From Bryum argenteum (lineage: Eukaryota > Streptophyta > Bryopsida > Bryales > Bryaceae), in NCBI GenBank assembly GCA_037043015.1, contig CM073321.1, forward strand, positions 14,629,001-14,693,000: 64,000 nucleotides of DNA, in the 5' to 3' direction. Below the pieces are notes generated by a model. The model saw only the letters and a list, made by a program, of their open reading frames with translations. It made no database searches and was not told where the DNA came from. Positions 6,111-59,353 of this stretch are shown here, piece after piece. A program made the position numbers and the translations under genes. Positions within the stretch are counted from its first letter, which is position 1; every line of letters starts with the position of its first letter.

Positions 6111-6408
6111 CAAAGTGCTACTCACACTCATTAGCCTCAAAGTCTATAAATTTAAGTACATTATTGCTGAATCGTGGACGTGTAGTGTCAGAGAGAATGG
6201 GAGACGGAGCACGAACGAACTCTTGAGCAAGACGCTCGGCATAAGAAGGTAGAGTGAATGTTGAAGGAGGGTTGTTGTAGAGATGAGCGTTGAGAGTCAA
6301 TCGCTCTTTCAGACGTGCGATCCTAAAAGTACAAAGAAAGTCAATACTACCGATTTGTTAGTGCGTAATTTAAAACCAAGAAAGAGAATAGAAGATGGTA
6401 TTACGCAC

Positions 6409-6947
6409 CAATGAATTTTCGTGGCTTCTTCACTTGTGGTTCATCAGAGTCATAATCTGCGGGAGGGGCTGATTCTCCACTTTCTTCATCACCGTGAGGA
6501 CCATTCTTGTAATCTTCTAGTACACCATCAAAGATTTCTTCGTCAGGTTCCATAGCGATCACTTGTCGGTTTGAGCGCGCGCAAGCAATTACAGGTGCAC
6601 TTAGAAATTCAGAAGCCCAGGTTAGAAATGCTAAGTGTATAAACGAATTCTAAAATAGCCGTTATGGATACATTACCTGTACTTGCGCTCTAGTCGAAGA
6701 CGAAATTTCCATCGTCTGTGAGGCAATCGTGGAAGCATTGAATGAAAGAGGGGTCCTTCTCTCGTGAGCCTCGCCATGGCGTACCGTCTGGAAGATAACG
6801 CAATGTCTCTTTGTCTGCAAAGTTAGAGAGGTGGTCGTCCTCATTAGGTATGATTGCCACATCCGCGTATGCGTGTGCCACTTGCCGAGTTTGGAACCTC
6901 GAAAACAACTCTTTACGAACATAAACTTTGATATGGAAGCAGTGAGT
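6409..6947 (-). pseudogene. Exons with methylase-like motif I and acidic tail
   Basis: Two exons, 6947-6677 and 6599-6409. The first reads PWRGSREKDPSFIQCF, then LTDDGNFVFD, a TAG, then SASTG. The second reads ACARSNRQVIAMEPDEE. Together this resembles the 'D.SAGTG..A.A......V.AVE.D' block that binds S-adenosylmethionine in the C-terminal part of amino-methyltransferases of the beta class. The TAG replaces the residue just before SASTG. After motif I the protein becomes acidic and proline-rich. A catalytic DPPY-type motif is not clear; DEWDIIPSLWP in the exon before (7385-7039) is the nearest candidate. Confidence 0.5.
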
Positions 6948-9546
6948 CTGCAAAACACAAGTATAGATACAGTAACATAGAAGCATAGAAGGCAATAATC
7001 ATGAATTGTGAAATTGGAAACTAGAATCTGCTCCGTACCTCTTTCGGTTTAGGTACGGTAGAGGCCATAGAGAGGGGATTATATCCCACTCGTCTTGAAC
7101 AACACAAAAATTATATGTATGGGACTCAAAATCGAGAGTACTCTCGATTCTACGACATTTTGGATGCATCAGAAGAATGGCTCCAATGTCTATCAAATGA
7201 TACACAGCAAAGAAGAAGAGGCTCTCAAAAGAGTTTTTATCACGCCGGTTCCAGGATGGAATTTCTATTAGAGACACACCCGGTACAAGCAAGTTCTTTG
7301 GAGCGTCTGGAAAAATGAGATCAATCCCTAGATGCTTGGGATTATATTCCATCGCTGTACACAGGTACTTCCGGTCTTTTCTAATCTGAGATACAAGTCA
7401 ATAATTAGATAGTGGATAATAGATTAAAAAGTACAAAATGTAAGTAGGGAAATTATAATTGACAAATGTACAAAATAGTACCTTCTTGATGTGCTGGACG
7501 ATTTTGAGGATCTGCGAATCCAAGTTTCCAGTCTTCAACGATTGATGAACCAAATCTCCAATGTTCCCCTTCTCGAGTTACATAGGCAAAGTGACTGATA
7601 TTTTTGCCGAAAAAGCTGCTACTAATGTGTTTGGCTTTCGAAAGAGGGCTTTTGGCAAATATTGGCTGGATGAGGCGATGTGGGGACTGCAGGGAGTTGT
7701 GGTCAACGGTGAATGATTGAGGAGGGGATCCAGCATTTCTAAGTCCACCTGTAGATTGTTGAGTCAATCTTGCACCGCGTCGAATGGCATTGGTTGCCGC
7801 TTTATCTGAAGCCTGAGTCAGATCAACTTCTTCTGGATCTGCAATGTCTTGTGCGAGGGGAACAATTTCTTCGGATTCTTCTTCAAGATCTACTAGAGGC
7901 TCCGGAACAGCGTTGCGTCGCTTCTTGTTGGCCTGAGGATTGGGCTGTGCAGCTTCCGGAGGTGAAGAGAGTGGGGCAAATGCGCCAAGCAAAATTGAAA
8001 AATCTCCATTGTCGTCTTCGTCGTATATTTCCATCGGTCCGGTGCCATCGGCGATTGTACCGAGGTTTTAAAGAAGATGCTTCTCCTCCTTATGCACATA
8101 GTCTTGGTGGCACTCAAGGAACCAACCACCAATCAACCTGTGAGGTACTAAACCGCCTCTGCTGGGCTTCTGAGAAAACGCTGTTGGGATTGTTTGTGAT
8201 GGAAACTTCTTCAAACTCTACTGGAATGGACCAAGAAGCTAATGCTCCCTCGGCAACTAACTACTATTTCAAGTACCTACAGTCAAGCAAACATAATAAG
8301 ATCATTTAATAGTTCGTACAAGATTGATTCAAATGATTAGTAAAGGAAATGCATACCGGAATATCAGTCGTTTAACGGTAGCTTTCCCACCACTAATCTT
8401 TTGAATGTTTGAGCCCTTAATGAACCTTGGGTTTGCATTAGGAGAGAGGTAGTTGCCGAAAGCCTTCTCCCATAAGAGCAACCTCCACTTCTCAACATAC
8501 GCAGATGGCTTAAGAACAACACTAGACCACTCAATGTTGAGATTGCCATCATCAACAAGTTTTTGCAATTCGCTTGCAAGGGATTGTTCCAGCTCAAAAA
8601 GAAGAGCATCCGTTAGACATTTAAACTACTGTGACCATAATAAAATTATAAACATTTGGATAACTTGCAAGTTACCTGTGCCCAAAGAGATGCGCAATGC
8701 AAAAATGCCACCAGAGTTTTATCTTTCATTGGACGCTCTTCTGGAAAGCAGACAAATCGACAAACTTCGTTTACTGCGTTCTACCAGTGCATCTACTTCC
8801 CTTTGAAATCGGGAAGAACATTGGTAGTGGCTACCATGTGTAAGCGATCGACGGTCATATCCGGTTTGTTGTTTTGCCTATAGTGAGAGTATATCTGCAC
8901 ATGAAACACGTTGACGATATCCATTTGAGTTTCAGAACTAAATGACAAGTAGGCTCATATTGAAACTCCAAAGTGAGATATGTATACCTCTTTTGGAAAT
9001 ACTTTTCCAAGCTTGTTATTGACGACATCGACCATTTCGTCAAAATTTTTATCACGAATGGACTTGATTTCTGCTTTGATTGCGTTATCCATGGCACTCC
9101 ATACGCCAGGTCCTGTTTGTTTATTCTTTGGAACAATGGCGTAGTAAGTAGTTTCAGCGTCATCCGATGCCTTTGCTAATCTCCTCTGTACAAATTATAA
9201 GGAGTTAGAAGGTGTGAAAAATACATATACAAAAATTGCAGTGAAGCACATACAACCTATCTTACCGCATATAAGAATTTAACAAAGACGTCAATTGTTA
9301 CAAGAAACCAAGTTTCCTTTTTTGCCTTGGCGTTCTTGCATATTCTGTAATACTCCGGAGATATGAGATCCTTGCAATCCTCAAGTTTCAGTTTTCCAAA
9401 CTTCCTCATGCGCTGCAATTTTGCACACAAACCGTCTTCGACATGGTCATGTTCAGTAGACCTGTAGAGCGGGATCCAACATGAGATACATTGACATTAT
9501 AAAAAATACAAATAAATTGTTTCAGGAAAATATGACAATTACTCAC

Positions 9547-10375
9547 CAATTTATGTCGTTAATAGCGTCTAGAAGGACGTTGCTCTCTCCTCGAGCATCA
9601 AGTACAATACAGTCCACGGAGATGTACCACGAAGGTTCCATCGTATGTTACCTCTCGATATGCCGCATCCACGCCGTAACACGATGGTTACCTTCGTTCA
9701 CGTAGAAGTACTTGTCACTAAGGTGTTGAAGAACCGGATCAGACTGCAGCGCCTTCTGAAACTCCTCATTAGCAGATTTCCAGAGTGGATTCGTCCACAC
9801 AACATCTTCAGCATCCACCATTTTTCTCTCCTTTTCTTATCGAAGGGAGAAACGTACATTACCATATTGCCCTCGCGATAGCCTTTGTTAAACCCATTCT
9901 CCAATTTTTGGACATCTTGCTCCGAGATAGGTCGAACCTTAGAGTAACAAATGAGACGACACAGTGGAATAAGCATCCGAGACTTTTTGACAGGTTTGTA
10001 CTGGAACCTGTTGATGATTGCAATTGAATCACTTTTGTGGATCATTCTCATCTCGTTTGCACTCTAATCCACATCTTTGTTTTGAAGATGAGTTGGCATG
10101 TGGACGATCCCAGCGTTGACACTTCCAGGCAATAAAGTGTCTTCATCTTCAGAATGAGAGACTGTCCAGCATGATCTTGCATGGGTTGAGGTTGACGGTC
10201 CTTTTCTAATGGACTGTCTTCCGGAACTCCGTTGCCCGTGTCTTCAGCACTTCTGCCACTATCATATAAAAGTTCATCTTCATCCAAAGATCCAGTTGGA
10301 AGAGAATTAAGCGGAGGTGGTGTAGCTTCTTCATCTTGAACCATATGGACTTGAGCTATGTTCATCTGACAATCC
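9547..10375 (-). pseudogene. Exon with ParB-like domain (EGNHR motif)
   Basis: The start follows a TGTCAG acceptor, and ATG is the first codon of the exon. After an acidic stretch, the text shows VRPISEQDVQKLENGFNKG and then, in the next frame, KYFYVNEGNHRVTAWMRHIE. ParB/Srx-fold proteins carry an invariant [DE]G.HR.A motif in the nucleotide-binding pocket, preceded by a segment selecting positions such as 'R.....DV..L...I'. Both parts are in the expected order and spacing. The frame shifts once between them, and a TAA follows WMRHIER, so this exon is not functional as it stands. Confidence 0.65.
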
Positions 10376-10559
10376 AGAAAACCAAATACAACACACCACA
10401 AAAAGAATTAGAAGGTATAAAAAGAACAATGAGATATAGAAAGTACTACAAAACTTTTTTATAATTAAGTATATGATAAACATATCATATAATTGGAGAT
10501 TGCAACTTTGCGGAAGTTGCGGAGATCGTCGTGGTGCAATTCTAGCTAACGCCTTTGCT

Positions 10560-10815
10560 TTGATTCCTCAAGCTTTTGCATCAACATTATTTTTTTGCAT
10601 ATAAATCGCTCGTGCAGCCCGATCAACGTCATCACGTGAAGTGTGACAGACAGGTGACGCAGGAGGTAGAGTTTTAGGAACCGAGGACAATGCTGTTACT
10701 AAAGGACGGGACTCTACTACAGCCATGACATGATCTTTCACAGCAGACAAATTGCTGTCAACATCAGATTCTTCTTCACGAACAACTCCATGATTGTAGC
10801 TTCAACGAATCCTGC
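10560..10815 (-). other. Candidate 5' coding exon, unknown
   Basis: After a TTGCAG acceptor at about 10,815 the minus strand reads VVREEESDVDSNLSAVKDHV and on through VDRAARAIYMQKNNVDAKA before a stop. Acidic, low-complexity and upstream of the ParB-like exon. It could be the N-terminal part of that gene or a separate remnant. Confidence 0.3.
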
Positions 10816-13479: not shown

Positions 13480-14050
13480 CGAACAATGGAAAGGAACAAA
13501 TCGTCGTCCTACTCCTATATAAACAAAGTTTACAAGCCGCCCCCTAACCTAATTTGCGCATTTGATCATCAATTATCACAACAACTATGACGGCTCATGG
13601 GCGGCCAAATGTGACAGTCTTTGATATGAGATGCTAATCTATTTTTTGAATTTAGATACAAATGCTCTAACAATGATGGCGGCCGTTACTTTTCCAAATT
13701 TGAGACTGTCTACACTTGCACATTAATGACACTAATTACAATTCTTTAATGTTTGAAGGCATTACCAAAGACCCCTTCTCGGTAGGCGGAGCGCCCCCGC
13801 CCACCTCTACGTTGGTCTGTAAGCTTTGCAAAGATCTTCCTGTTTGTGTTGCGCCTTGTTCTGCAAAGATCTTTTAGATAGTTGGAGAAAATTGTCAGGA
13901 GCGTGCATGTGTCCATATAGGAACCCACAAACACCCTGTTAAAGTCGGAGATTATAGATGTGTAAGAAAAAAAATAGATGAGTTACTAGAAGAGCATGTT
14001 GACTGTTACCCTCAAGCAACAATTTCCAAAATAGTTATGTAAACGAGCAA
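13480..14050. other. Intergenic, no gene seen
   Basis: AT-rich flank before the MULE. A short minus-strand open frame at 13,746-13,934 has no recognisable content. Confidence 0.4.
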
Positions 14051-14054
14051 AGAC

Positions 14055-16590
14055 ATGCTAGGTAACTTACTTCTCCGTGACAAAGGTGACCCCGAAACTG
14101 GCAACCTTTCTCTCCGGCAGCTAGAACCTGTCTTTAAACAATGCAAAGAGTTGAACTCTCCGATCATGCAGAATCGTATCTACACTTTCAAGTACTTGCG
14201 TAGGTATGGCATTCTCGATGGGATTACGAAGCTCAGAGGTCTCAGCAACTCGGCGTATGTGCAACACAACATGTTCCCTAGCCAAGGCGACCAATCGGAA
14301 AAAGTCTTCAGCTTCAAGATATCCGAGGTCGGCCCCGGTAGCGGTGTTGACCTTGTTCGCCGTATGCAGCCTGGAGGAAACCTCTCCTACGCATGGATGA
14401 TGTTTGACCATGTCAAACGCGTTACAGATTGGACCACCATGGCCTTCCACGTGTACGACTCGCGTTACCAACGCATTCTAACCATTGTATGCTGTGATTT
14501 CCAGTCTGAGGACAAAGACGCTCAACTCGTCTTCTGGAAGAACCTCAACCACGTCAGGCAAGGAAAGGAGTACCCAAATTGTAGTTTCAAGGATTAATGG
14601 CTGATAGTGCTCAAGCCAATTGGAACGCTGTGCGCATCATCTACAACTTTGGAAACCCTGTTGTCCCCATGGAAGGCCGCGAACGCACATGTTATTTCCA
14701 TTGGACGCAGTCTCTTGGGAAACATACAAAACAATACATTGTGCACGAATTGCAAAGCCAACACCTGATTCTCTGTAAGCAGTACAAGGATGCGCGCACC
14801 ATGGAAGAGGCTGAGATGCGGTATTGGGCTATCAAAGCATGGTAGGCATCCTCAAAGGCTACCTCGGAAGTTGGTTTAGAACACCTAGGTCATTGACTTG
14901 CGTACTACCATTTTAGGTACAGACAATGGGGTGGATTTATGGAACTAGTAAGTATACAATTCCTTTGCGTTATTTTTGCTGATTACATGTTCTACGATAG
15001 CTTCTATAATGTTATGACAGTTGCAAAGAAAATGACAGTTATTGTTATAATAATATATATTAGTGGTTGATTTTTATGTGGATGTATATACTGTGAATGT
15101 GTATTAAGTACAAATCTAAATTATGAATAGAGTTCTAATAAGTTTGTACATTGCAGGAAAAATAATATTCAGTAGAAAAACTCACTGAGATGCCTTCTTG
15201 TAACTTTGTCGAGTCAATCCATAACAAATGGTTGCAAGCGTCTAGCAATAAGGGTAGGGATCTCTACGTTGCAGCCGTTGAGGATTACGTTTGAGCCTTC
15301 CTCCAAGTGGTCGGCTACCATCGATACAACAAAGGTGGAGCAAGTGGTTTTGGACCATCTGTAGACAAACTTCGTAAGCGTCTTCACGCCGTCCAACGTC
15401 GAGCTGATGGATCCGGCAATCCAGCTTGCGTCAACAAGAGAGTTATGGACTTCCCTCAAGCAGAGGCTTTCTCTACGCGTGATGCCCACTTGGAGGGGGC
15501 AGAGGTTTTCCGTTCCAGAAAACGTAAGGCATATGTTTCCATTGGTGCTGAAGATGAAACCCATCGACCTGACACCGTGAGCTACTCGCGTCCTCGGGTC
15601 GGGAGAGGAGTCACAGAAGCTTATGCTGAGAATCTCACTACTATCTACGAAGAAGATGAAGTTCAGGAGGAACCGCTGGAACCGTCCTTTTCTCCTAGAC
15701 CTTGTATTCAGCGCGTCATTGCTGTCCAAGAGACGAGAGTGAATGAGCGGCTTTGGCACATTGCCCGTTTGAAAGAGTCTTCAGCCAAGGCTTGTTGGGG
15801 TATTATGGCTAAGACTAGGAAGAAATGCAAATCCCGCATTGTCCAAAACGGGAAGGCGATCGCAGCTCCAACTTACACCAGAGTATGGCAGCGTCGTCAA
15901 GAACGTCCTAAAAAAATTAATCAGTTCTTCTTTTGTCCTGACGACATTGAGCGTTGTGTAAAGGGCAGTCGTCGTAAATGGATTGAGCCGTTCTCTCGGA
16001 AATAAGGTTGACCGCCTATTCCCTCACTTTGGCCCGTGAAGATTGGAACGAATCTAACACGTGACAAAATAGAGGCGTTGGAGAATGCGGGATTTCGGCT
16101 CCCACACAAGGAACGGCTTCCATTCATTACTGTTGCTCCACCGAGAGACTTGTCACATATTCCAGTGCCGAACAAGGCTGACGTGTACCCAAAATCACGC
16201 AAGTCTAAACTTCTTCGACGCATCAAGGCTGTGACTCCGAAGCACATGAAGAACATTGATTCAGCTCGTGCCATGGAGGCAAAATTACTCGAGGTGACCA
16301 TGATACCACAACCTCGTTTTGGATGTACTGTCGCTTTGGAGTCGGATTCAGAGTATATCTATAAACTATCTCTTAGTGAGAACCCGTAATGCCCGGTGTT
16401 CAAAAAAACCATAACTAAGCTAGACCGAAAAGGCAAACCGTATAGACATTGCAAGCACCTATACTTTGTGTTGGTATTGGTATGCAAATTTGATATCGAT
16501 AGAGACATCTTCATCCACACGCCCACCCTCAGTTTCAATGAGGTGAAAATGATTCTAGAGAGGGGCATCCTAGACCAAGTTACAGAGTAG
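14055..16590 (+). pseudogene. Mutator-like (MULE) transposase with SWIM finger
   Basis: The first frame (14,055-14,594) ends in AWMMFDHVKRVTDWTTMAFH and FQSEDKDAQLVFWKNL. A one-base shift leads into FMADSAQANWNAVRIIYNFG and TCYFHWTQSLGKHT. These fit the MULE transposase core, with Asp in FDHV, Asp in MADSA and a following Glu-rich helix. FVESIHNKWLQASSNKGRDL follows at 15.2 kb, a long basic linker runs to 16,005, and a SWIM-type zinc finger lies at the end (NP, TAA, CPVF ... YRHCKHLYFVLVLVC). Stops and shifts at about 14,590, 14,845, 15,295, 16,005 and 16,387 make it a pseudogene. Terminal inverted repeats were not found by eye. Confidence 0.75.
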
Positions 16591-19869: not shown

Positions 19870-20360
19870 CAGTTTAGCTCGAGTCGAGCTAAACTGTATG
19901 GCCTACGTATTCCTGCAGTTTAGCTCGAGTCGAGCTAAACTGTATGGCCTACATATTCCTGCAGTTTAGCTCAAGTTGAGCTAAACTGCAGTATGTATTC
20001 GATCAAACAGTTTAGCTCGAGTCGAGCTAAACTTCACTATGTACTCGGTCAAACAGTTTAGCTCGACTCGATCTAAATTGCACTATGTATTCAATCGAAT
20101 TGTTTAGCTCAAGTCGAGCTAAAGTGCAGTATGTATCCAACCAATCAGTTTAGCTCGTGTCGAGCTAATCCGAAGCGCAGTACTGTACTTACACTTCTAC
20201 TGGAGTCCAGCTTAACTGCAGGGCGTTGAAGGATGAACAGTTTAGATCGAGTCGAGCTAAACTGCTTGATCAAATACATAATGCAGTTTAGCTCGAGTCG
20301 AGCTAACTTATAGAATGTATTCTCTTAGTCAGTTTAGCTCGACTTGAGCTAAACTGCATG
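19870..20360. repeat. Palindrome array A (about 11 units, CAG/CTG outer arms)
   Basis: Each unit is TTTAGCTCGA, one G or C, then TCGAGCTAAA, extended outward here by CAG on the left and CTG on the right, so the dyad is kept. Spacers are about 20-30 bases and share phrases such as TATGGCCTAC and ACTATGTAYTC. Two or three units are degraded (20,160-20,260). The array ends about 80 bases before the first coding exon of the DUF7869-like pseudogene, so it probably sits in that gene's first intron, as in the other copies. Confidence 0.9.
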
Positions 20361-36395: not shown

Positions 36396-36399
36396 GTCG

Positions 36400-43547: not shown

Positions 43548-43568
43548 TTTAGCTCGAGACGAGCTAAA
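43548..43568. repeat. Palindrome unit inside a coding exon, copy 1
   Basis: TTTAGCTCGAGACGAGCTAAA lies in frame in the last exon and encodes LARDELN. One base departs from the perfect dyad. Confidence 0.85.
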
Positions 43569-44239
43569 CCAGCAGTCTCCAGGGGTCGTCGATATTGGGG
43601 CCGCTAGGACTCCAGTTCAGCACAGTGTTCCACCCCCGGAGTTTCGGAGGGAGGTTCGTTGAAAGAACTCGAACGATCGCATCTACCGGGATCTCTTTGG
43701 CGAAGACGATGTAGAACCTGGGCAAGAGCGTGTGCCACGGGATGCATCATCATCCGACAGCTCTGACTCGTCAGACAATGACGATGTTGAGGGTGCGAGC
43801 GGTGGCGACGGGGACGACGATGACCAAGCTGATGATGCTGATCTCGCGGCCATGACCTTAGACGACGAGGTGGCTCCTGATCCATCCCAGGAGGAGACTA
43901 CTTTGGCGCCTCCTCCCCAAGGCCCGCAGAGCGCACCCAGGAGGCAGATTGAGAAGGAGAAGTACGATAAATGGTTCGTGAAAGGTATTTGGAAGCCCGA
44001 GGACGAGCCGGAGGATACTATGGAAATCCGGTTTTACGACTTCTCGGAGGAGCCTAGTTCTCCAAGCCTTTGAGGGCTGAGGATGATCCTCTTCTCCCTG
44101 TCGTGCCTCTGCTCAGGGAAGAAGGAGAGCCTTCACAACCACCAGTGAAAGTGGAAGTTGTCGCCCCCATGCTCACGAAGGATCAGAAGCCAGCACAGAA
44201 GTGGCAAGAGAAGGAGGCTCTGAAGGCTCGCAAGGCAAA

Positions 44240-44245
44240 GAACAC
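44240..44245. other. Junction between tandem cassettes
   Basis: To the left is the exon text ending GCTCGCAAGGCAAAG (compare 58,605-58,619, where the gene continues). To the right begins AACACGTAATTC, which is DUF7869-like gene sequence in the opposite strand sense. The methylase-fold gene is therefore cut exactly here. Confidence 0.85.
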
Positions 44246-47084
44246 GTAATTCTTTATAATGGGAATATTCAAACTCTCAAACTCTAGATCTCGTAAAAGC
44301 TTTAATATTGATCCAACAGTGTGATTGCAATCACTTGGATAAATATCGAGCCCATAATGAGCATACCGGACATCGCTATGCCCCTGAGCAATCATGCCAG
44401 TCACGGCAATTGGAAGCTTCATCAATGCATCATTTGCCTTTGTTTTATGTGAAAATACAGGGCAGGCAGTCTTCGCATGATCCATTTTGTCATGTATTAT
44501 ACAAAGGACATCTCTCGGCCGCTGAATAGAAAGAGAACGATTTGAATAATAATACTCACGATGCGTTTCTTGATGATGCAAATGCTCCTCAAGCTTCTTG
44601 ATCCACATAGTCTCTTCACATGAATCAGGTACCATAGACTTGATCATTGTCTCCATCCTGTCACAAGTTGAGCAACGAGCAAAGTTGTCCCCAGGCGCCT
44701 TCTTTGAATACTCTGAAAATTTTAACCTCCTAATCCTGCTCAATGTGCTCTGAGAAATAGACTTCAAGCCCAACCTCTCATTGATGTCATTGATCCCTGG
44801 TATAGCATCCTTCCATCTGAAGGACGATGGCAAGGACCGAGAGACAACCTTCTCACCAGATGTCAACATCTTCGACCGGTGAGGCATATGATCAGCAGCA
44901 TTGTCAATAAATGTCTTCAAAGTAGCAACAGCTTGCTTTACATGCAATCATGGTTTCTTCAGACCAACATTCCCATGGTGCCGAGCACGTAGTCCATCTG
45001 CAGCTTCTGCCTTCCGCCTGTAAAATGTGGAAATCGGAACTCCACTAATATGTTGCCATGCAAGCGCACAAACATCAATGCCTTCAGTGGTTACCATCAT
45101 CGTGCCGTTCGGTGCCTGATGAAAACGATTATGAACATCGATCTTGAAATGTGATTTAAATTTAAAACCCGACGCCTCGTACATCTGCTTTCGGAGAGCC
45201 ATAATTTTCTCACGAGGGAAAGGTTGGCAACAGTTCTTGTTGCAGCAAATCTTGCTTGCAACCAAGTTGACTGAATCTAACGTCAAGAGCTCCTCCTCCC
45301 TCTTGGTCCTCACAAATCGTTGGTTCCGTTCTCCCAAATCATACGGTCGCACCCCCTTCTTCTTTGGATGATCGCGGGCATAAACAGCGACGTTGAATTG
45401 ATCAACTCGTAAATGATCAAGTAGTGACCAACCCTCGTGCATAGCATGGCTGAGCTTCCAGCTCCTGGTCCCATAAATGGTCTCAGCAGGTACGAAGTCG
45501 AAATTCAAGCACTTCACGATCTGCACAACTACTTGATCTTCACATATGGGCTCGTCATTACATTCAAGCATTCTTTCAGCGTCCAGAGTCTGACAAATGC
45601 CTTCACCAACAACGTCCCCACTATCGTTGAGAAGTGTTACAAATTTCGTAACCCATTTACTTCTGGGAAGTCCGGGGCAATCTTTTAAGTGGTCCGGAAG
45701 AACAAGCTCAGAAGGACCTTCCAAGTCCTAAAAGACCACAAACATAGACAAATTAGTACGAATGGATGAACTCAGAACAATATTGTATTCTGCAAATTAA
45801 GTAAGTCCAGTACCTCCGAAAAAAGATGCTGAAAATCACCGTCGCCATCGGATTCACTCAATTCCATGATAACCTGAATGCCAGCAATAAACAAACAATC
45901 ATGAGAAATCACTGGTAGCTAAATCTACGTGCAGTCAGAAATGCTTACTACCATTGAGAGTATATGACCATTTAGCTCGAGTCGAGCTAAATAGTCATCA
46001 AGCTTCAACAGCTTCGAGGTAAGCGTGATGAACAGTTTTCTTAATGACCACTTAGCTCGACTCGAGCTAACTGGTCTTCAAGATAACTGTTCAACTCTCA
46101 CCACGACGCAGTAAAAGCTGGATGACCATTTAGCTCGAGTCGAGCTAAATGGGCATACCACTCCGTTGTAGCTTAAGCCCATTTAGCTCGACTCGAGCTA
46201 AATGGGCGTCCAGCTCTGATTTAGTGCAAGACCATTTAGCTCGAGTCGAGCTAAATGGTCACGGACCTTAAACATGGTCCGGCCCATTTAGCTCGACTCG
46301 AGCTAAATGGGCTTACTGCTGTGATTCAGTGCACGCCTATTTTGCTCGACTCGAGCTAAATAGGCTTGCACTGAATAGAAGCAGTAAGCCCATTTAGCTC
46401 GAGTCGAGCTAAATGGGCTTGTATTCAATCAGAGCAATACGCCCATTTAGATCGAGTCGAGCTAAATGGGCTTGATCAGTTACAAGGCAGTATGCCCACT
46501 TAGCTCGAGTCGAGCTAAATGGGCTTGATCTGCTACAAGGCAGTATGCCCACTTAGCTCGACTCGAGCTAAATGGGCGTATTGCTCTGATTAAATACAAG
46601 CCCACTTAGCTCGACTCGAGCTAAATGGGCTTACTGCCCTGTAGCAGATTAAGCCCATTTAGCTCGACTCGAGCTAAATGGGCTTACTGCCCTGTAGCAG
46701 ATTAAGCCCATTTAGCTCGACTCGAGCTAAATGGTCTTCGGATGAATTCTGAAGTACAGGACTTCATGAGCTTGTCCATATATCATGCATATGTTATATG
46801 AAACTGCCTCGATATTCGTGCACAACAAATACTAAGAATCGTTCTTGGGAACTGTTCACAAGTAAAACAGTATCTTTGCCTCGATTTCCGTGCACAACTA
46901 TACCGACGATATCCACATTGCCATCAGGAATGCACCACGATGAACGCAAGATATGACCAATCAACAACAATCTCTTGTTATACATTGACATTGAGGATAT
47001 AGATCGAACTTACCCTCACGCCGTGCTTGACAGCTGCAATACTTCAACGAAGGCCCTGGGCATCCTCAATAGCAGCACGCGCAT
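44246..47084 (-). pseudogene. DUF7869-like putative transposase, second copy, internally deleted
   Basis: Exons 47,084-47,014, 45,873-45,814 and from 45,724 leftwards correspond to those of the copy at 26.2-30.6 kb, with high identity through HFKIDVHNRFHQ, CSTCDR, IIHDKMDHAKT and SILKLLRDLE. A one-base deletion breaks exon 1, and a stop (TGA) interrupts at about 44,948. After LLRDLE the text jumps directly to FESLNIPIIKNYVF, which belongs to the C-terminal exon type seen at 25.7 kb, so the second and third acidic blocks are lost. The end then runs into the antisense of the methylase-fold gene. Non-functional deletion derivative. Confidence 0.8.
45966..46738. repeat. Palindrome array C (14 units) in intron 1 of the second DUF7869-like copy
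   Basis: Same core and arms as array B. Fourteen units, spacing 50-80 bases, with GACCA arms near the coding end and GCCCA arms further out. Unit number and spacer order differ from array B although flanks are nearly identical, so the array evolves faster than the surrounding DNA. Confidence 0.95.
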
Positions 47085-47089
47085 CAACT

Positions 47090-47520
47090 CCAGAGCTACT
47101 AAGAGTCCCAAACTCTAATCAAAATTTGCAAAACCGGAAGCACTAATGGTAATAGGGAGTTTAGGCAAAACGTAGTGTACAGAGACGAAGGGCGGAGATG
47201 CGAAGGTGCGGAGGTGAGGCGAAGGGCAACAGGAGCGGAGCACGGGAGGAGCGGAAAGAGCACAAGAATGGAGCGAGAGCGAGGCGGAGCGCGAAAGCGC
47301 AGCGGAGCGGAGCAGGAAAGGAGCGGAAAGCGCATAGTGCGCAAATGAGGAGAGAGCCAGAGCAAGCGGGAAGAGAAATGGCGCCAAACAAGATTACGAA
47401 CTCAAAATAGAAAGGGCGCCAAATACGGCCAGTAACGGTATAGAGTAAAAGCGACGTCGTTGGGAACTTCGGGGGAACGGGGAGCTTCACAAGGAACGGG
47501 GAACTTCGCAAGGAACGAAA
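47090..47520 (-). promoter_or_regulatory. GC-rich 5' leader/promoter of the second DUF7869-like copy
   Basis: Matches 30,600-31,060, including pyrimidine-rich CGCTCC repeats and GAAGTTCCCCGTTCC motifs. Several small indels shift every open frame relative to the first copy, which supports a non-coding role. Confidence 0.5.
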
Positions 47521-50500
47521 ACATAATTAACGAAAATTCGGGAGGAACGACGACATCTTAGGGCAGTAAAATCATTTGAAGTTAAGTCGCCGAGGAATCT
47601 GTAATACTTCTAAAAATAGAAATTACATAATTGTAATAAAAAAAACCGGATTCGCGAGGAAAATGGATAACCCAAACTCAAATGAACAAAATAATCTCTT
47701 AATGCGCCGAATGTTAAAAAACGACATTTTGAATAGAAAGCATAACTTTGAATAGCCATATCTTCTTCATCTGAGGTCTGTTTTGAATAATATCACTTAG
47801 GTTTTCCTCCAAATCAAGTCTAGTTTCTATTCTAAACTTCGCAAAAGAGTATGAATTAATGAAATGCACTTTAGTGAAAACAGCTCTTCTATTTTATTGG
47901 AACTCCAAGCATGGAGCATGTATTATGATTGCAAGCCAATTACGTGAAATTAAAAATAGTTTTTCATGATTCGCTTTTTCATAATCATGATCTTAAGGTG
48001 ACTCTTAACAACTTTATAGTCTTTAAGCCTAGCGTTATGCTTAATTGATTAAAATCGACAGGTGTTGTGAAGTATAATTGTAAGATTTGTATTTACCAAA
48101 TTACGTGTAATATTAAAAGATAAATACTTTACACGTTGAAACAGTTATAGTAAATATTATATTCAAATTATTTAAATGTGATCCTATAAGATTAGTTTCT
48201 ATTTAATTAGGTGTGGTGTATTACGTATGATATTCAATTAAGTTGAATGTGATATTCTACAAATGGCCATTATAAACGTAATATTCAAGATATTTATGTG
48301 ATATAATATCATATAAGTATTTAGACAGTGATTAAGTTGAGAAATCATAAGTTTATTACGTATTTTTTCAAGTGTGTTATTTCCAATATGATATTTTAAG
48401 TATATTACTTAAAGTATAATATATTTAAAGTATAATTTTATTGCTTTAAAATTCAGTCTTGTTAACATTGAGTGACTATATGTTTTTTAAAAGTTTAGTA
48501 TTTTATGTGTGATATTCAAACATAATAATATTCTGTTTTACTTCAATTCTTATGCTAGGATGCTTTATATACTATAGTATTCTAAAGTTATCTTCAAAAA
48601 TTTATAATGTATCTGCATTTACGCTTTCTTTTATAAAGTTGATATCTAACTTCTATGTTTACTTTTCAATCCTTCCTCTTTAAGTTCAAAAATAATTAAC
48701 CTTTAATCCTAAACCTTCAACACAATAACTAAAACCTTAATTCCTAAACTCGTTAGCTTAAATTCTATACTCTATTTAAGGACTCTCGCAACGCATTCTA
48801 TCTCGTGGCGCACTCTCTACTTTCCCCGCGCACATGTCCTTTCGCTATTCCGCCGTTTTCTTCTGCTCCTACTCCTCGCTCATGCTACTTTAGCTAATCC
48901 TCGGGCTCATTCTCTTTCTTGCGCTTGTTTGCATCGCTTCGAAGCTCTTCTTCCGTTCAATTTGGTGCAGCCTCTGTATTTTTCCAGTCGATCATTTTTG
49001 GATTGATTCACTTGATTTAGCTCCGCGCTTGGTTTTTTCATTGAAACAATTTGATAGTTGCTACTGTAAAATGGTTGCAAATGGCACATTCATTTTAAGG
49101 AGATTTGTATATTAAGCTATGAGAATCAAATGTGTTGGTTGTGCATTAAATTTTAAATTTCGTTATTTGTTTACATGTGTCATGTTTACCCTGGCAGAAT
49201 ATTTATGTGAAATCTTCATAACTTTTTTATTTAGATATTCTTTACTTAAGTATTAATTTTTTATTAAAGATTAAGGAGTTTAGATTAATTTTTGTTTAAT
49301 ATACTAATATGTTTTGTTTTACTATATTGTACTATATGAAAATATATTTATTATTATAATAAGGTATATTCAATATTATTGAATATGCTATTATACACTA
49401 TATTACTACATTAATTTATACTTAAATAATAGTTATTATATCAATAGACTAATCTACTGTATTTTAAATTTTTTAATAATATATAATGTCTATCAGTTCT
49501 AATAGTTGAATGTGAATATTAATAATGTTTTGTTCCAATAGGATATTTCCCTACCTAACGGGGAAATGTAGATTAATAATCATGGGCATTCGTCATACAT
49601 AAATTAAATGCATATTTAATTGTGCGTAAATACTTTATTTTATTCCGTGCTAACAATATGCTTATTGCCTACAAAATTACTTAATGTAGGTTAAATCAGT
49701 TAACGTTTTACTAATGAAAATTAAATATTTAGAATCAAAAATATCTTTTTTGTAATTTTGTATCTTACTATCTTAAGAAACTTAGGTTTGCCTATGCGAA
49801 CTTATGTATGCAAAATTGAGATTCAAAAGAAGTTAAGTATCATTCCCAATATTTTTTTCAAGAAATGTAAGCAATCGGTATAAAAGGCAATGTAGTTACT
49901 TAATGTTTCCTCGTGAATTTTGATCGACACAAATGAAAATATAAATAATACGATCCTAATTGTTGAAACTTTAAGAAACAATGCTTACGTATAGGATATC
50001 GACTATGCATATCCGAATTTCAATCAAAATGAGACTCATTCTGTTAAAATGAGATTGACCCCAAAAAAGCTTGCTTTGTGGAAGACATCTAAGAATGACA
50101 AATACGCTCACATCACAAAGTTGTTGTGCATTCTTCAATTATTTCCTTCACGCAGAGAGAATTGGTTGCGCTATTTTCAGACAAAATTGATCCAATGGAT
50201 GAAGTAATTGCGGAGCGGAAAGAAGTAAAGCAATCAAAATATAAAAACCACTTACACTCTCTATTTGCCACTACATTAGATGTTTTTACTTACTTTAAAT
50301 ATTGACGGATTATTTAATTCTCATTTTCATTCTACAGTTAGTTTTTTCTAGCATATAATATTTCTAACACGATCACTAAAAATATATGGTTTCTTTTAGG
50401 TGTTTTAAAAATGATAATCACATCCTTATACAAACTTAAGGTTAATGTAGATGATAACATGCAGGATCGTTACCCGTATATATTATTTATAGGATACTTT

Positions 50501-52000
50501 CATTTTTTTAAGGTTCTTATGAAGTAATACAAGTAAAACAATCTTATTCTTCTATTTTATTTATTTACATTTTACTTATTATTTATAGTTTGAAAGTGAT
50601 AAAACTTTTACAAAAAACTCGTAGCATGTAGATTTGTTTTTTATACAAGTTATAAATATCACCATCATATTTATAAGTTTTCTTTTTAAGATCTAAACTA
50701 TGTTTCTTAATCTTAATTTACTTTCCCACCAATTAAACATATTTAACTAACATTTTATAGGATAATTACTCTAGGATTTAAAAATATCTTTATTCACTTG
50801 AATTTGATTTCTTACGAATTAATTTAAGCTTTAACCATAGAAATGAACTATTTTAATTCAATGCGTGAAAACAAAAACATATAAATTAAACAAAAACATA
50901 TAAACTAAACAAAAACAAATAAAATAAACATATAATTTTAAAGTAATGAAATAAAAAATGATTGAAAAAAAAGAAATACTTCCAATGTCTCGTGGTCCTT
51001 ATATTTTCACCATAGTTATCATATGACATGAATTATGAATTAAAGTTATAAAAACCACTCTTCGTCCCTTTTTGCGCATAATTACAGTTGCACTCGCCCC
51101 CTACTTCAAATTCTGCTGAGTTATTGAATTCTCACCAAATTTTTTAGACTTCCATTTGCCCTATGATATTTTTTACACTTTCACCACATTCATATGGTCC
51201 TATTTAGCTATTTTAGATATTAAAATCACCTTCTTTCCATCAGTTCTCTTATTCACCCCCTTATTCAAATTTCTAAAAGGTCAACGTAAACAATGACACA
51301 TAGATGGGTTACTCCTATGATTTATTTTATGACCCCATAATTTTTATAAGGTTATTAATAGTTAGTCACAGTACAAAAATCTTTTTGCTCCGCAATTTAT
51401 TTATTTTTCCCTTATTATTTTAAGTTCCAATGTGTTAAAACTTTTGTAAGAAACTCATAGCATATAGATGCCTCTTTCTCACAAATTTCTAAATATCACC
51501 ATCAATTTTATAGGTTAGCTAACCTAAGATTCAAAAATATTTTTTCTCATATTCTTTATATTTTCTACAAATTATTCAAAGTTCGGGTCGATAGAGTAAA
51601 TGTAATGTAAATCGGGAAAAATAGTTCCGATTTCTTAGATATTATTTTGGTGATTCCATAAATTTTATTGAATCCTTATTACCTTCTTCACATATAAAAA
51701 CCCCTTTCCAATAATTTTTTTTAAATACATCTCCAAACGCCTCCTATTTTGACAAGTCTAAATAATTAAACTTGTGTACTTCTTCAAAAATTAACTAACA
51801 AAAACATATTTAACTTACAAAACATATTTAACTAACGAAACATATTAAACTAACAAAACATATTTAAGTAACAAAAACGAATTAAAAAAAAACATATTAA
51901 ACTAACAAAACATATTTAAATAACAAAACATGTTAAACTAACTAAACATATTGAATTAAAAAAACGAAAAAAAAAAAAAAAAAAATTTAAAAAAACCGCC
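47520..52000. other. AT-rich centre of the second cassette
   Basis: No gene seen. It matches 31.1-33.9 kb and 36.5-38.0 kb of the first cassette in blocks. The RING-like gene and GGGGCCCC minisatellite are absent; the shared sequence resumes near 49,900. AAAACATATTTAACTAAC tandem-like repeats occur at 51,790-51,955. Confidence 0.65.
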
Positions 52001-52532
52001 AACCCGGCAGCTCGGGCAGGCCAAGCAGACCCGGCTTGGGCCGGGCAGCCTGGCAGCCCGGGCAGCACCGAACGGCGGCGGAGGAGGTCGTCTCGCAGAC
52101 AGGCGGCGGCGGGCGCGGTCGAACCCCTTCAATTGCTCCCGCCTGAGCTCCTTCTTCCCCGCCTCCATCCTCCCGCCGAGCTCCTTTCTTCCTCGCGCCT
52201 CCATCTTCCTCATTGCCGCGCCCTTCTCACCGCCGCCTCCTTCTCACCACCGCGCTTTCTTTCTCCGCCGCCCTCCCTCCGCTTGCTTCCATTGCGCTTT
52301 TCCTGTGCTTTTTCAGCTTTTCCTCATCGCGCTTTTCCTCATCGCTGCGTTCGCCGTGTTGTGCTCCTGCTCCTGCTCGCCGTGTTGTGCTCCTGCTCGC
52401 CTCTGTGTTGTGCTTTTGCTCCTCCGTGTTCAGCTTTTGCGCCTCAGTCTTCAATCGCTGCACGCTCTCGGCTCTTTTCTTCTGCGCTCTTTGTTGCATC
52501 ATCAGGGCATTTTTTGTCCACCTTCATTGTAA
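52000..52532 (+). promoter_or_regulatory. GC-rich 5' leader of ParB/methylase-fold copy 2
   Basis: GC-rich block ending in the donor CATT then GTAAGTTGC. The position and composition equal those of 38,150-38,647, though the sequence is more divergent than the exons downstream. Confidence 0.5.
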
Positions 52533-52709
52533 GTTGCTGATTCTGCACTTTTAGGTTTTGGATTGGGTTGGCATTTTCATAGCATTTTCAGTACATTGCA
52601 GGGCATAATATTATGGAATGTTGCTCGAAAAGTAATGCGGGTCTTCCAATTTGTGTTCTTCTCTTCGAAATTGGTGTTTTTCTGCTCAAATGCGCTCAAT
52701 TTCATCGTT

Positions 52710-53872
52710 CAGCTCATTTAGCTCGATGCCCATTCAGCTCGATGCCCATTTAGCTCGATGCCCATTTAGCTCGATGCCCATTTAGCTCGATGCCTATTTA
52801 ACTTCACTTAATCATCTAAATTTCCAAGAACACCAAGCCCATTTAGCTCGAGTCGAGCTAAATGGGCTGACTGCTTCACTGCAGTAAGCCCATTTAGCTC
52901 GAGTCGAGCTAAATGGGCTTACTGCACTGAAGCAGTCAAGCCCATTTAGCTCGACTCGAGCTAAATGGGCCTGGCCATGATTCAGGCCCGTGACCATTTA
53001 GCTCGAGTCGAGCTAAATGGGCTTGTCCGCTTCATTGCAGGTCAAGCCCATTTAGCTCGACTCAAGCTAAATGGGCGCGGCCCTGAATTGAGGCCAGGCC
53101 CATTTAGCTCGAGTCGAGCTAAATAGTCTATCTGCTATATTGCAGGTCGAGCCCATTTAGCTTGAATCGAGCTAAATGGGCCTGGCCATGATTCAGGCCC
53201 GTGACCATTTAGCTCGAGTCGAGCTAAATAGGCAGACTGCTTCATTGCAGGTCAAGCCCATTTAGCTCGACTCGAGCTAAATGGTCTCGGACCTGAATAA
53301 TGGCCAGGCCCATTTAGCTTGAGTCGAGCTAAATGGGCTCGAACTTCAATATAGCAGATAGACCATTTAGCTCGACTCGAGCTAAATGGGCCTGACCTCA
53401 ATTCAGGCCCGCGCCCATTTAGCTCGAGTCGAGCTAAATGGGCTTGACCGCTTCATTGCAGGTCAAGCCCATTTAGCTCGACTCGAGCTAAATGGTCCCG
53501 GGCCTGAATCAAGGCCAGGACCATTTAGCTCGACTCGAGCTAAATGGGCTGACTGCTTCATTGCACGTAGGGCCCATTTAGCTCGAGTCGAGCTAAATGG
53601 TCACGGCTATGAAACATTCGCCATCTGCTTCATTGCTTATCAAGCCCATTTAGCTCGAGTCGAGCTAAATGGGCCAGGCCATGTTTCATAGCCGTGACCA
53701 TTTAGCTCGACTCGAGCTAAGTGGGCTTGAACTGCCACAGAGCACTGAGCCCATTTAGCTCGAGTCGAGCTAAATGGGCATACTATTAGGTCCAGGGCCA
53801 TGCATATGTCGACCTTAGTGGACTTACTAGTAGGTTTTGGGTCATTTAGCTCGACTCGAGCTAATTGATCTC
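52710..53872. repeat. Half-site ladder and palindrome array D (19 units) in intron 1
   Basis: Half-sites (TTTAGCTCGATGCCCA) at 52,710-52,800, then nineteen full palindromes from 52,835 to 53,872 with mean spacing about 52 bases. This is the longest array in the window. Spacers form families (GCTTCATTGCAGGTCAAG, GGCCATGATTCAGGCC) and occur in both orientations. Confidence 0.95.
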
Positions 53873-54128
53873 TCCACCTATTGAAATCATGTCGGATTTG
53901 AGCGTCAATTTAATGACGATGTTTTATTGCCCTTCTGAATCTTACATGTGTCTCTCGTTTGCTGTATGGCAGTGATGCCGAGAACGAAACAAACTGCCAG
54001 AATCGTTCAGATGGCTTCGAATGCACCTGCCGAGCCTGAAATCGAAGTCAACTTGGATGCTGGTCAACAAGAGTCTGTTCCTGAGGTAATAGTCCACTTC
54101 ATATCTATGTTTCCATCTAATGTGACCA

Positions 54129-57100
54129 TTTAGCTCGACTCGAGCTAATTTGCCCTCTGTTAATTTGATATCCACAGGTCACTTACAATATGCAAGCCCT
54201 GGAGGGATTCCTTGCACCAGTAGTATTCGAATCAGCAGACGATCCGCTTGCAGCTATAGCTCTGGACGCGCAATGGGGGAGGTTGTGGACCCCCAAGCCA
54301 CATTCTATCAAGTCTTGGTCGATTCGTCCGATGAACAAGACGCACTTCTTCTTTTATCAGCAATCAGGATCTCACGGGGCATTTTTGCCCCTGTGTCTTG
54401 ATGCCTTCATCGAACTTGTTACATATGAGGACGAATTCCTCATGATCAAGTTCGAAGCAGTGGAGGTCGAAGGATTCGTCTTCACTATTGTGTTTCCCCC
54501 TAATGAAGTCCGTTTCTCCCACGACTTCATCCGGAGCTTTATGGTCGGGAAGGTCGATCCCAATCAACTTCATCATATCGACACGAAATTGCAGCCCAAT
54601 CAGTCTTCCCCGAAAATCTTCGCCAGATCGTACATTCCTTACACTGCGCAGATCTGGAAGGCTCTCTCTGATTTCGAGAATGCAAAGAAGAAAGGCAAGG
54701 CTCCAATGAAACGGCCCGGGAATCTACTGTTGTAGGCTCCATCCAGAAATGCTCCGTCGGGTCTAGGCACTCCAGAGGGAAGTCTAGGCGTTCAGGGTAC
54801 GAAGCGTCCAAACCCGAACTCTTCCAGCTCTGGATCCAAGAGGGGCAAATCCTCCGGCAGCGCTCTTATGTTCATGAACCCTACCATGAACGTGGCTGTC
54901 TCTGAGAAGGAGATCAAGTATGAGGAAGCGGCAAAGTCTCTGAAGGACTACAGGGACAGCTGTGGAGAGTGTTATGTCTTCTGTCGTGACAATCCCCTTG
55001 ATGTGTGGATCGACCTGCTTGACCCTTCCGACCAGGGTTTATCGTGCGATCTCTGGAACCAGCCGGCATCGCGCATTACAAGAACATCTTGATGAATTCT
55101 CTTGATGTAACTTCCAGACAAACCATCATCATTATGCCGAAGATCAAAACTGAGCCTGAGGTTTGGGATTGGGAAGTTCTGGTTCAATCTTGTCGGTTCT
55201 GAATTATCGACGGGCAGCACCACGTTGAGGCTGCGAAACAGTTGATTCGGGACAAGAAGATCGATGAATCGAAGGTCCTCGCCCTTCAGACATGGAAAGC
55301 CCACGTTGTGTGGCATTCCGACATCAACAAGATTCTGGACGTGTCGGCCATGGCGAACAAGACGAACAATGCTGGGACGTTCATACCTTCCTGGGCAACG
55401 AACATCATGGGCGCTAGAAAGGACTGGGAAGACTATGGCCGCCCTGAAAAACTGAAGAAGCCGCATCGACGTGAAACACCGGTTGAAGTAGATAACCGGA
55501 AGCGTTATAAGGTATAGATTACCTGGTCTTTACTTTTTCTGGTTGGCGTTGTTTGCATTCTCTATCAACGTGTTTGGGGATGTCGTTTTAGCTCGACTCG
55601 AGCTAAAACAGCATAGGTTGTTTCTTAATAGTTTGGCTTTCGTGCAGGCATTCGCGGCTGCTATGGTGAAGAGGTTCATCAGCATCAACAGTAACGCAAA
55701 GGACAAGATCGTCAGACCGTCGGACCTTCGCAACGAGCTCCTCATCATCACATCTCCGGACGACGTCTACGAGTTGTGGAAGAGGTTCATCACTGACTAC
55801 AGTCTTGGAGAGCTGATCGACCCCGACACCGAGCTTCCATTCAATCAGGCGAAAGATTGGGAAACCGCCTCAAAGAAGTTCACCTTGAACAGGGAGTTCT
55901 TCAAGGGAATGGGGCAGTTGGACGCGGAGAACCTCGAGGTGTTGGTGCAAAGACTTGGCCGAACGAGACTCGGATCGAACGTTGCCCTACCCCAAGGTGG
56001 CCGTGAGGAAGCCTGCGAAGAAATACTTCCAGTGCATGAGTGCAAAGCAGTGGGTGGAGAATCGGAAGAGGAAGAACACTGTCGCGAGGGAACTGCACAA
56101 CCTCAAGCCCTCGCTCGGTTTGTTCGACTCCGAGTGGCAGTTCGACGTCGAAAAATGGAGGAAGTTTAAGGTGGAATACAATCTGACTCGTCGACTATGT
56201 CCATGCTTCTCTCGGTCCCGGCGACTCGTTCTTCACCCTCTACCGTCAAAAGCGGCATTTAAGAATAGGAGTGCAGCGAGAGATATCGGAATATGCGGCC
56301 GAGTTCTTCAAGAAGTTCCTGGATGTCAAAGGGACGTTTGAACCTCCTGCACCGATTGTTTACACGCGGCTCTTTTACTCTTCCGAGTTCAAATTCGGGA
56401 TTTGGGACAAGAACTACGCCTGGAACCAATCTAGCAAGTGTGATTTAGGCTTGATTGATTTGCGAGCTGTCCCGGGGAGTGGAAGTAGAGTGGACGACAC
56501 GGAGAGTCCATACTTTCAAGAATTCCTTGATGTGTCGGCAGACACCGTGACCGATCCTCACATCAAGAATCCCGAGGTTTGGATGTTCATCACCTCCAAC
56601 GTCGACCGTAACTGCCAGGCAATGGTTTACGTCGACAAGAAGTTGAAGGACGAGTACTCTCGCAAGGCAGCCAACTACATGCCGGCCAACAACGAGCGAT
56701 TCAACGGCATTGCAGAGGGAAAAGCTTCAGAGAAGCACTTGCTCCCCCTCCTCTTTCTTGTCTAGAAGAGCAGCCATGCTCAGAGTGTGTTGGATGCGAT
56801 ACCCTCTGTATTTTACGCTCCTGAGTTGCCCCTCTATTCGAAGCCCGGCGCGTACAGAGAACACGACCTTGGTCTGAGTGACACCGAGCTCCGATTGGAG
56901 TTCTACTGTCGGGTGCTGAAGATATTCTCATCTCCGGGAGGGAAGTTTCTATCGATTATGGGTGGCACAAAGCCAATGTTGGCTGGAATTGTAAGTACAT
57001 TGCACCATTCCTTCAACTTGAATTCCACAAGCTCGTTTAGCTCGACTCGAGCTAAACGATCTCATGCTCGTTTAGCTCGACTCGAGCTAAACGATCTCAT

Positions 57101-57226
57101 GCTCGTTTAGCTCGACTCGAGCTAAACGATCTCATGCTCGTTTAGCTCGAGTCGAGCTAAACACTCGCATGCCTAACTCTATTCATCATGTATTTTGTCC
57201 ATGGCCTTTTAGCTCGAGTCGAGCTA
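54129..57226. repeat. Palindrome units in introns of ParB/methylase-fold copy 2
   Basis: Units at 54,129-54,149, 55,587-55,607, and five in the third listed intron: 57,036, 57,071, 57,106, 57,141 (exact 35-base period) and 57,208. Copy 1 has only two of the 35-base units at this place. Confidence 0.9.
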
Positions 57227-57926
57227 TTTCGTCTTAGTCTTCTTATAAGTTTCTCTCTCCTTCTAAAACAGATGTGCCAGGCTGAGACATTTGTTGTTAT
57301 CAGCGAGACCGAGAAGGAGGCTTATACGAATGCTGCGACGGATTATCAACATCTGGACTACAACGATATCAACGTCGCAGCATACGTAAATCCAGAAGCT
57401 AATCGCGGTCCCAAGCGTTCTGCTGAAGGGTCAGGGAAGGGAAAGAAGAGGATGTCTAAGAAGAAGACCACCCAGCATGCAAGCGACGACTCTTCCGCTT
57501 CTGAGCACGAGGATGAAGATGAAGGTGGTCCTTCTTCTCCGGCGGGGATGAATTCCCGCATGGATTCAGCTGTTCCTCTGGTGTCTCCTCCCGCAATCGA
57601 CTGGGCTGCGGTGGCAATTCCGTCCAGTACTGCTCGTGCTCCCCCTCGTGGTCGTGGTACTGCTCGTGCTCCCCCTCAGGGTCGTGGAAGCGGTCGAGCT
57701 CGGTCTTCTGCGTCTCATGGCCGCGGTAGAGCACGCGCCCGTCCGCGCGAATCTACCAAGCGTTCTTCTTCTGAGGCGCGAGCTGGAGAGGCTTCTCGGT
57801 CAAGAAGCGCTACTGTGCCTCAAGCACGGAGGGCGCTCGAAGCCAACTATAGGGCCTGCGATGTCGTCGAGGACATTGAGAGCCCCCCCTCCGACGCTTG
57901 CGTCGTGGTCCTCCATCGGAGGAGGA

Positions 57927-57947
57927 TTTAGCTCGACTCGAGCTAAA
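57927..57947. repeat. Palindrome unit inside a coding exon, copy 2
   Basis: A perfect core with central C, in frame, encoding LARLELN. It is at the same place as the unit at 43,548. Confidence 0.9.
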
Positions 57948-59353
57948 CGAGCAGTCTCCTGGGGTCGTCGATATTGGGACCGCTGGGACTCCAGTTCAGC
58001 ACAGTGTTCCACCCCCGGGGTTTCGGAGGGAGGTTCGTTCAAAGAACTCGAACGATGGCATCTACCGGGATATCTTTGGCGAAGACGATGAAGAACCTGG
58101 GCAAGAGCGTCTGCCGCGGGATGCATCATCATCCGACAGCTCTGACTCCTCAGACAATGACGATGTTGAGGGTGCGAGCGATGGCGACGGGGATGACGAT
58201 GACCAAGCTGATGATGCTGATCTCGCGGCCATGACCTTAGACGACGAGGTGGCTCATGATCCATCCCAGGAGGAGACTACTTTGGCGCCTTCTCCCCAGG
58301 GCCCGCAGAGTCCTCCCAGGAGGCAGATTGAGAAGGGGAAGTATGACAAATGGTTAGTGAAAGGTGTTTGGAAGGCCGAGGACGAGCCGGAGGATACCAA
58401 AGTAGTCCGGTTTTATGACTTCTCGGAAGAGCCTAGTTCTCCAAAGCCTTTGAGGGCTGAGGATGATCCTCTTCTTCCTGTCATGCCTCTGCTCAGGGAG
58501 GAAGGAGAGCCTTCACAACCACCAGTGAAAGTGGAAGTTGTCGCCCCTTTGCTCACGAAGGATCAGAAGCGAGCACAGAAGCGGCAAGAAAATGAGGCTC
58601 TGAAGGCTCGCAAGGCAAAGGAAGAAGCAGAGAGAGAAGCGGAGAGAGAGAGGCAAAGGTTAGCAGACATTGCAGCTGCGAATGCTCGAGTGGACAGATT
58701 GGAGTCCACATTCCTGAGCTCCCTGTCCGAAACCCGCATGGCACTAGGCAAGATGGAGCAGATGTTTCAATCATTCGGGAATATCTTATCCCAACTGCCT
58801 AGTTATCCTAAACCCATTGCCTCCATTACCCCCGATCAACCTCGCCTCAGCATTTGTGACGCGAGTCCACCAGCCATCGTCGCGCCTCCACATCCTCACA
58901 TCGTCGCGCCTGCACAACCAGCCATCGTCGCGCCTCCACAGCCTCCTATTGTTGCTGAACCAGAGATCGCACCCCGCCCCATACCCCTCGAGATTTTGGA
59001 GAAGCCGGCGAGAGAGAATGAAGTCCCGATTGAGGCAGCGCTGACGCCCAGCCACTCCCCCGTGGCTACCGAAGTTGTTCCTACCCTTGACTCTCCCGTG
59101 GCTGCTACTGAGACGGCCATAACTTCACCGGTAAATCCAGAGGTTAGTTATTATCCTTTCTTTGCTCTGCTATTCCCTCATCTCTTGAAGTTTTCGCATT
59201 TAGTAATCTTAAAGCCGGCGCACCTTGTTTGACAGGAGTCCGGCACCAATGGCGGCGAGTAGGTCGACGAGTAGTCTCCGAATTATTGGATGCTGTTTCG
59301 CTTTTTGTACATAGTACAATTATAATCGTTGTACTTATTGAAACATCATTCAA

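Follow-up and report, generated by a model that had tools for sequence, protein, structure and literature searches.

ParB proteins are DNA-binding proteins that usually recognise a palindromic site, and bacterial ParB-methylase fusions and ParB-parS systems bring together a ParB-type motif, a methylase and a palindromic site by the gene. Among DNA transposons, Sola elements are described with a 4-bp target-site duplication (TSD), a DDD transposase, terminal inverted repeats (TIRs) of 11-1124 bp and some members above 15 kb, and are known in the moss Physcomitrella (PMC10741241); Sola2 elements with a second gene, Fanzor1, have been described (PMC3627910). We analysed a 64,000-nucleotide stretch of the moss Bryum argenteum (hereafter the window; G000:C1:14629001-14693000; the assembly comprises 25 contigs totalling 258,844,377 bases), in which a DUF7869 gene and a second gene, called here the partner, lie head to head. 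This gene pair is, with a probability of about 0.8, the coding core of a giant TIR DNA transposon family. By its ends, TSD and size, the family appears most like Sola.

The ends of the element were investigated with five good DUF7869 copies (X1-X5) taken from contigs C3, C4, C6 (two) and C9. The homology on the DUF7869 side stopped at an identical point in X1-X5 and in copy A of the window. The 28-bp TIR AACACGTAATTCGTTATAATGGGAATAT was found at both ends of X1 and X3, which are therefore complete and measure 18,801 and 23,122 bp (18.8 and 23.1 kb); one of the X3 ends carries a single mismatch. The partner-side end was incomplete in X2, which lacks the outermost bases, and in X4, which is cut. 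Genome-wide, the TIR pattern with at most 2 mismatches gave 464 forward and 458 reverse matches, that is 922 ends, and the reversed control gave 0. TIR pairs in opposite orientation and 13-30 kb apart were then collected from 100 listed places, all exact matches on contigs C1 and C2, with omission of one pair having a miniature inverted-repeat transposable element (MITE) inside its end (C1:24432488). All 15 pairs (15/15) share exactly 4 flanking bases, compared to 0 of 210 mispaired flanks, and the 15 TSDs are 68% A+T (41/60 bases). In X1 and X3 the duplications, TTTG and AACC, are likewise of 4 bp. A 151-bp MITE (G000:C1:24448644-24448794, L065) exhibited the same TIRs with a CTAA duplication and, by eye, a degenerate iteron-like sequence. 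TIRs at both ends and a TSD of fixed length, the features of a TIR (class II) DNA transposon, are both present.

In the window, copies A and B of this family span 25.7-61.2 kb. Self-comparison matched 27570-31434 with 44283-47902 and 37095-44240 with 50907-58620, the pieces being about 80-95% identical. As a preliminary description of this stretch had proposed, the window contains three DUF7869 genes, at 26.2-29.0 kb (-), at 44.28-45.7 kb (-, where the gene is truncated) and at 20.5-23.3 kb (+). Facing the first of these is a partner gene at 39.9-43.3 kb (+), and facing the second is one at 54.2-59.2 kb (+); both pairs are head to head, with an AT-rich centre between the two genes. Apparent introns occur in the window. 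The features of A and B are the following (strand in brackets; the palindrome arrays carry none):

25696-25723 (+): DUF7869-side TIR of A, exact AACACGTAATTCGTTATAATGGGAATAT
26229-27329 (-): DUF7869 gene of A, exon 2 (C-terminal half); Pfam PF25273, E 5.3e-20, and tblastn with moss proteins
27446-29014 (-): DUF7869 gene of A, exon 1 (523 aa, open)
29337-30240: palindrome array by the DUF7869 gene of A, spacing mostly 53 bp
38990-39455: palindrome array by the partner gene of A
39886-41211 (+): partner gene of A, exon 1; it carries FRIIDGQHHVEAAK, the ParB-like motif
41362-42690 (+): partner gene of A, exon 2; resembles a methylase by eye only, without Pfam match; 56-58% conserved in the sister subfamily
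42694-44240 (+): partner gene of A, 3' part, up to the start of B (self-BLAST end, 44240 = 58620)
44241-44268 (+): DUF7869-side TIR of B, 1 mismatch
44283-45727 (-): DUF7869 gene of B, 3' end removed by internal deletion
45971-46731: palindrome array, DUF7869 side of B
52842-53774: palindrome array, partner side of B
54190-55514 (+): partner gene of B, exon 1 (broken)
55660-57000 (+): partner gene of B, exon 2 (broken; limits approximate, from self-BLAST and repeats)
57880-59232 (+): long open reading frame (ORF), tail of the partner gene of B; conserved piece in Y1, short one in Y2
59606-60469 (+): NIF (CTD-phosphatase-like) ORF, third coding piece of the element; PF03031, E 3e-4; in X1-X4 and Y1
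60470-61178 (+): partner-side subterminal region of B; homology ends at 61178, with other sequence beyond

A and B had been described as tandem units bounded by 26.2 and 59.26 kb; with TIRs at 25696 and 44241 and homology up to 61178, they read instead as a nested insertion. B appears, as read from one side, to be nested in the partner gene of A, because its own TIR starts at 44241, exactly where A stops; the far end of B and the remainder of A were not found. B keeps approximately its first 40 bp and then lacks about 1.8 kb up to the equivalent of 27570. An extra DUF7869 C-terminal fragment (25260-25712, -) directly abuts the TIR of A, so that A in turn seems to have landed in a DUF7869 copy of greater age. 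The centre of A also contains a 374-aa ORF (34469-35593, -) with a Cys-rich stretch and without Pfam match, and a 21/22-bp tandem array at 35840-36471.

The preliminary description had called for a count of the pairing across the assembly and a search for shared termini and TSDs, and this check, run on the listed matches, came out in its favour. For the young family, that of A and B, 82 DUF7869 matches of 1959 candidates and 89 partner matches of 992 were listed; for the older family, that of the DUF7869 gene at 20.5-23.3 kb (copy C), the lists comprised 150 of 1279 and 150 of 815. The lists being incomplete, the unpaired fraction is an upper bound. In the young family, 33 of the 82 listed DUF7869 matches have a listed partner head to head within 25 kb, beside 2 tail-to-tail pairs and 1 same-strand pair among the matches listed, and random placement within contigs (contigs of unseen length taken as 18-20 Mb) averaged 1.3 and never exceeded 4 over 500 trials. 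This 33/82 is a lower bound, because X4 and two members of a sister subfamily at ~76%, Y1 and Y2, were scored unpaired although their DNA has the partner: the pair is head to head in X1-X4 (4/5 fetched young-family copies) and in both Y copies (2/2). In the copy C family, 97 of 150 listed DUF7869 matches lie head to head with the family's own partner (94 of the 123 matches with the highest scores, plus 3 from the remaining 27, which stand at 75-81% identity; by identity, 97/126 at >=73%), beside 5 tail-to-tail and 3 same-strand pairs among the matches listed; random placement gave a mean of 3.8 and a maximum of 11 in 300 trials. By these shuffled-position controls the pairing exceeds chance in both families. 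Two homologues from the same source, P0008 (DUF7869) and P0122 (partner), both with a longest contig of 43751 bases, hint at the pair in another organism. Contig C1 (44.1 of 258.8 Mb) is strongly enriched, with 64/82 and 115/150 of the listed DUF7869 matches and 72/89 and 117/150 of the listed partner matches in the young and older families; a sex chromosome may be one possibility.

Selection on the coding pieces was estimated as the pairwise Nei-Gojobori ratio of nonsynonymous to synonymous substitution rates (dN/dS) with our own script, codons with stops being skipped. The ratio was 0.13 for DUF7869 exon 1 (28 pairs among 8 copies, L001-L008; exon 1 only). Partner exons 1 and 2 gave 0.37 and 0.33, each from 15 pairs, and the NIF ORF gave 0.43 from 10 pairs; for partner exon 1 among A, X2 and X3 it was 0.17-0.25. 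Both genes are under purifying selection. Because of the 0.37 and 0.33 values, and because dS is saturated between subfamilies against a dN of 0.33-0.53, the partner is probably retained by selection and not merely carried, though less strictly than DUF7869.

The DUF7869 protein is predicted to be a transposase of DDD type from its three Asp blocks, HDKMD, QxDN and HTHDDID, which are invariant or nearly so in 16 sequences. The named organisms among the listed matches of the window protein are the mosses Physcomitrium and Ceratodon, and a metagenome relative among them, P0079, is annotated in its source as 'transposase'. DUF7869 was named nowhere in the literature searched; with the ends, the TSD and the copy number it gains a likely role as transposase. 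This points to transposon genes behind many of the moss proteins that carry the label 'DUF7869' or 'hypothetical'.

In partner exon 1, a CxFxxIDG block is nearly invariant in an alignment of 11, and a DGQHHxxAAK stretch is present in the family alignment; we take this region to be ParB-like. The copy A partner showed no Pfam match at cut-off, including over 41335-43299 for a methylase domain, a sequence search of the PDB gave no match, and the fold model (mean predicted local distance difference test score, pLDDT, of 42) had no significant PDB match. The earlier label of a ParB/methylase fold is here reduced to a ParB-like motif and a stretch that resembles a methylase by eye. The NIF ORF scored 20.9 bits (E 3e-4) against PF03031, just below the cut-off of 21.8. 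Across families the partner is homologous (hhalign 99.6%, E 2e-24). Literature searches on ParB and transposons (moss, algal, bryophyte, plant) returned nothing evidently relevant, Repbase and most subscription papers being out of reach; the elements may already be catalogued in Repbase, for example as Sola in Physcomitrium.

A 21-bp palindrome, TTTAGCTCGASTCGAGCTAAA, forms arrays beside the gene starts and between the coding pieces of the partner, with a spacing of 53 bp in A and B and 46 bp in C. The genome contains 4929 perfect copies, and the control gave 0. X1-X4 contain 78, 88, 82 and 67 half-sites, all within the element as read from 1-kb bins, and X5 has 2. The element comprises two divergent units, each facing a palindrome array: DUF7869 as unit 1, and as unit 2 the partner, with its ParB-like motif and a methylase-like stretch by eye, followed by the NIF/CTD-phosphatase-like ORF. 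The DUF7869 transposase would cut at the TIRs and join with a 4-base stagger. The ParB-like partner on the palindromes could control the divergent promoters, or could join both internal arrays in a complex aiding transposition or escape from silencing.

The preliminary description had counted 6.1-23.3 kb as a third, inverted example of the cassette and the key support for a mobile element. Two features of this region concern its DUF7869 gene:

19873-20353: palindrome array by copy C, 46-bp spacing
20546-23302 (+): copy C, a degraded old DUF7869 gene of the sister family, for which no partner was found

The gene at 6118-10800 (-) is broken and seems to contain introns. Its closest named counterparts are Ceratodon P0131 (43% identity) and P0132 (41%), which themselves match an N6_N4 methylase weakly and below cut-off (E 0.034 and 0.015). 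As the DUF7869 partner this gene was ruled out by tblastn, by hhalign and by the different gene of the copy C family. None of the 4 partner homologues with tblastn rows to compare (of 10 found) hit it, and hhalign probability was <=0.3% in 4 comparisons with shallow profiles. For an element of the copy C family at C1:204-217 kb, the second gene was located via the palindrome positions: a 1.1-kb piece of sequence from there encodes a protein homologous to the 40-44 kb partner (30.8%, E 4.5e-29, short target) and nothing resembling the 6-10 kb gene. Copy C itself is unpaired among the matches listed, and the window has no partner gene of its type besides those of A and B. The DUF7869 gene at 20.5-23.3 kb is thus beside an unrelated gene and is no third example. 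The profile comparison gave the very outcome, an unrelated 6-10 kb gene, that had been set beforehand as speaking against the idea, and the support from the inverted copy falls because the copy C family carries a homologue of the 40-44 kb gene and not the 6-10 kb gene. The argument from the inverted copy is lost; the conclusion that both genes belong to a composite mobile element stands, on the TIRs, TSDs, genome-wide pairing and selection. Between copy C and the 6-10 kb gene, ORFs at 14043-14850 (+) resemble by eye another transposase fragment. The interval 1-5000 (+) holds what by eye are the remains of a Ty3-type retroelement, with ORFs resembling an integrase and a chromodomain, and a tRNA gene search of the window found none.

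Several observations weigh against a transposon with this gene pair as its core. X5 has no partner in 21 kb upstream, and a listed partner is missing for all 24 DUF7869 matches listed at ~52-56% to copy C (0/24). The partner dN/dS is weaker than that of DUF7869 and reaches 0.82 in pairs with broken copies, and stops are present in many copies. A 60-sequence alignment, many of its rows incomplete, lists only the first Asp block at >=90%, and the DUF7869 fold model has a mean pLDDT of 67 without PDB match at E<=0.001. In the sister subfamily at ~76%, Y1 has 0 palindrome half-sites and Y2 two; Y1 (L031-L032) and Y2 (L033-L034) keep the same head-to-head genes, and repeats of the GCTAAACGCACA type replace the palindrome. 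The palindromic site thus varies by subfamily, because both copies are nearly without half-sites yet have other short repeats.

That the pair reflects a segmental duplication, or chance neighbours in a repeat-rich chromosome, would agree with the concentration of the older family on C1, but it is very improbable, since copies with the same ends and TSDs occur on other contigs, all 15 TIR pairs have TSDs, and random placement never reached the observed pairing in 500 and 300 trials. Less improbable, though still unlikely, is that the partner is passenger cargo, captured once and without part in transposition or maintenance. The stops in many copies, a MITE that requires the ends alone and the 56 of 89 listed partner matches without a listed head-to-head DUF7869 (the lists being incomplete) agree with cargo; a homologous partner in the same head-to-head layout in three DUF7869 families ~46-77% identical, and a partner dN/dS below 1, argue against it.

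Within the transposon reading, the partner protein is tentatively a putative reader of the palindromes as iterons. Just as likely, and with the same reserve, the transposase itself would bind the palindromic iterons, and the partner would serve a different purpose, such as a chromatin function. Subterminal repeats are bound by the transposase in some other plant DNA transposons, the arrays border both genes, DUF7869 and partner alike, and the iteron-like sequence of the MITE, seen by eye, also fits binding by the transposase; the ParB motif, on the other side, suggests a DNA-binding family with a palindromic site. It is rather doubtful that the element holds a ParB/parS-like system, in which the partner would load on its own palindrome arrays flanking the divergent promoter region and the resulting element-specific nucleoprotein complex would pair ends, partition excised copies or shield from silencing.

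The plant transposon described here keeps a large ParB-like partner over deep divergence, with its own palindrome array in two of three families. For the role of accessory genes in eukaryotic DNA transposons, these elements offer a case in which site, protein and selection can be tested jointly. The moss partner resembles the bacterial ParB-methylase and ParB-parS systems by its ParB-type motif, methylase-like stretch and adjoining palindrome, and differs from them in having no Pfam match at cut-off, in bearing introns and in lying within a plant transposon. The virus-borne Mariner-2_PGv and Mariner-1_OLpv, with endonuclease and methyltransferase genes, are also DNA transposons with a methyltransferase-type accessory gene; they differ by transposase family and by recognisable methylase domains, and their description mentions no ParB-like region (PMC3627910). 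The descriptions of Sola elements in the two sources mention neither a ParB-like partner nor palindromic iteron arrays (PMC10741241, PMC3627910), and the Sola2 cases have fixed AT-only TSDs (PMC3627910), compared to 68% A+T in the moss elements. Sola shares with the moss elements the 4-bp TSD, found here as well, sizes above 15 kb and a moss host (PMC10741241).

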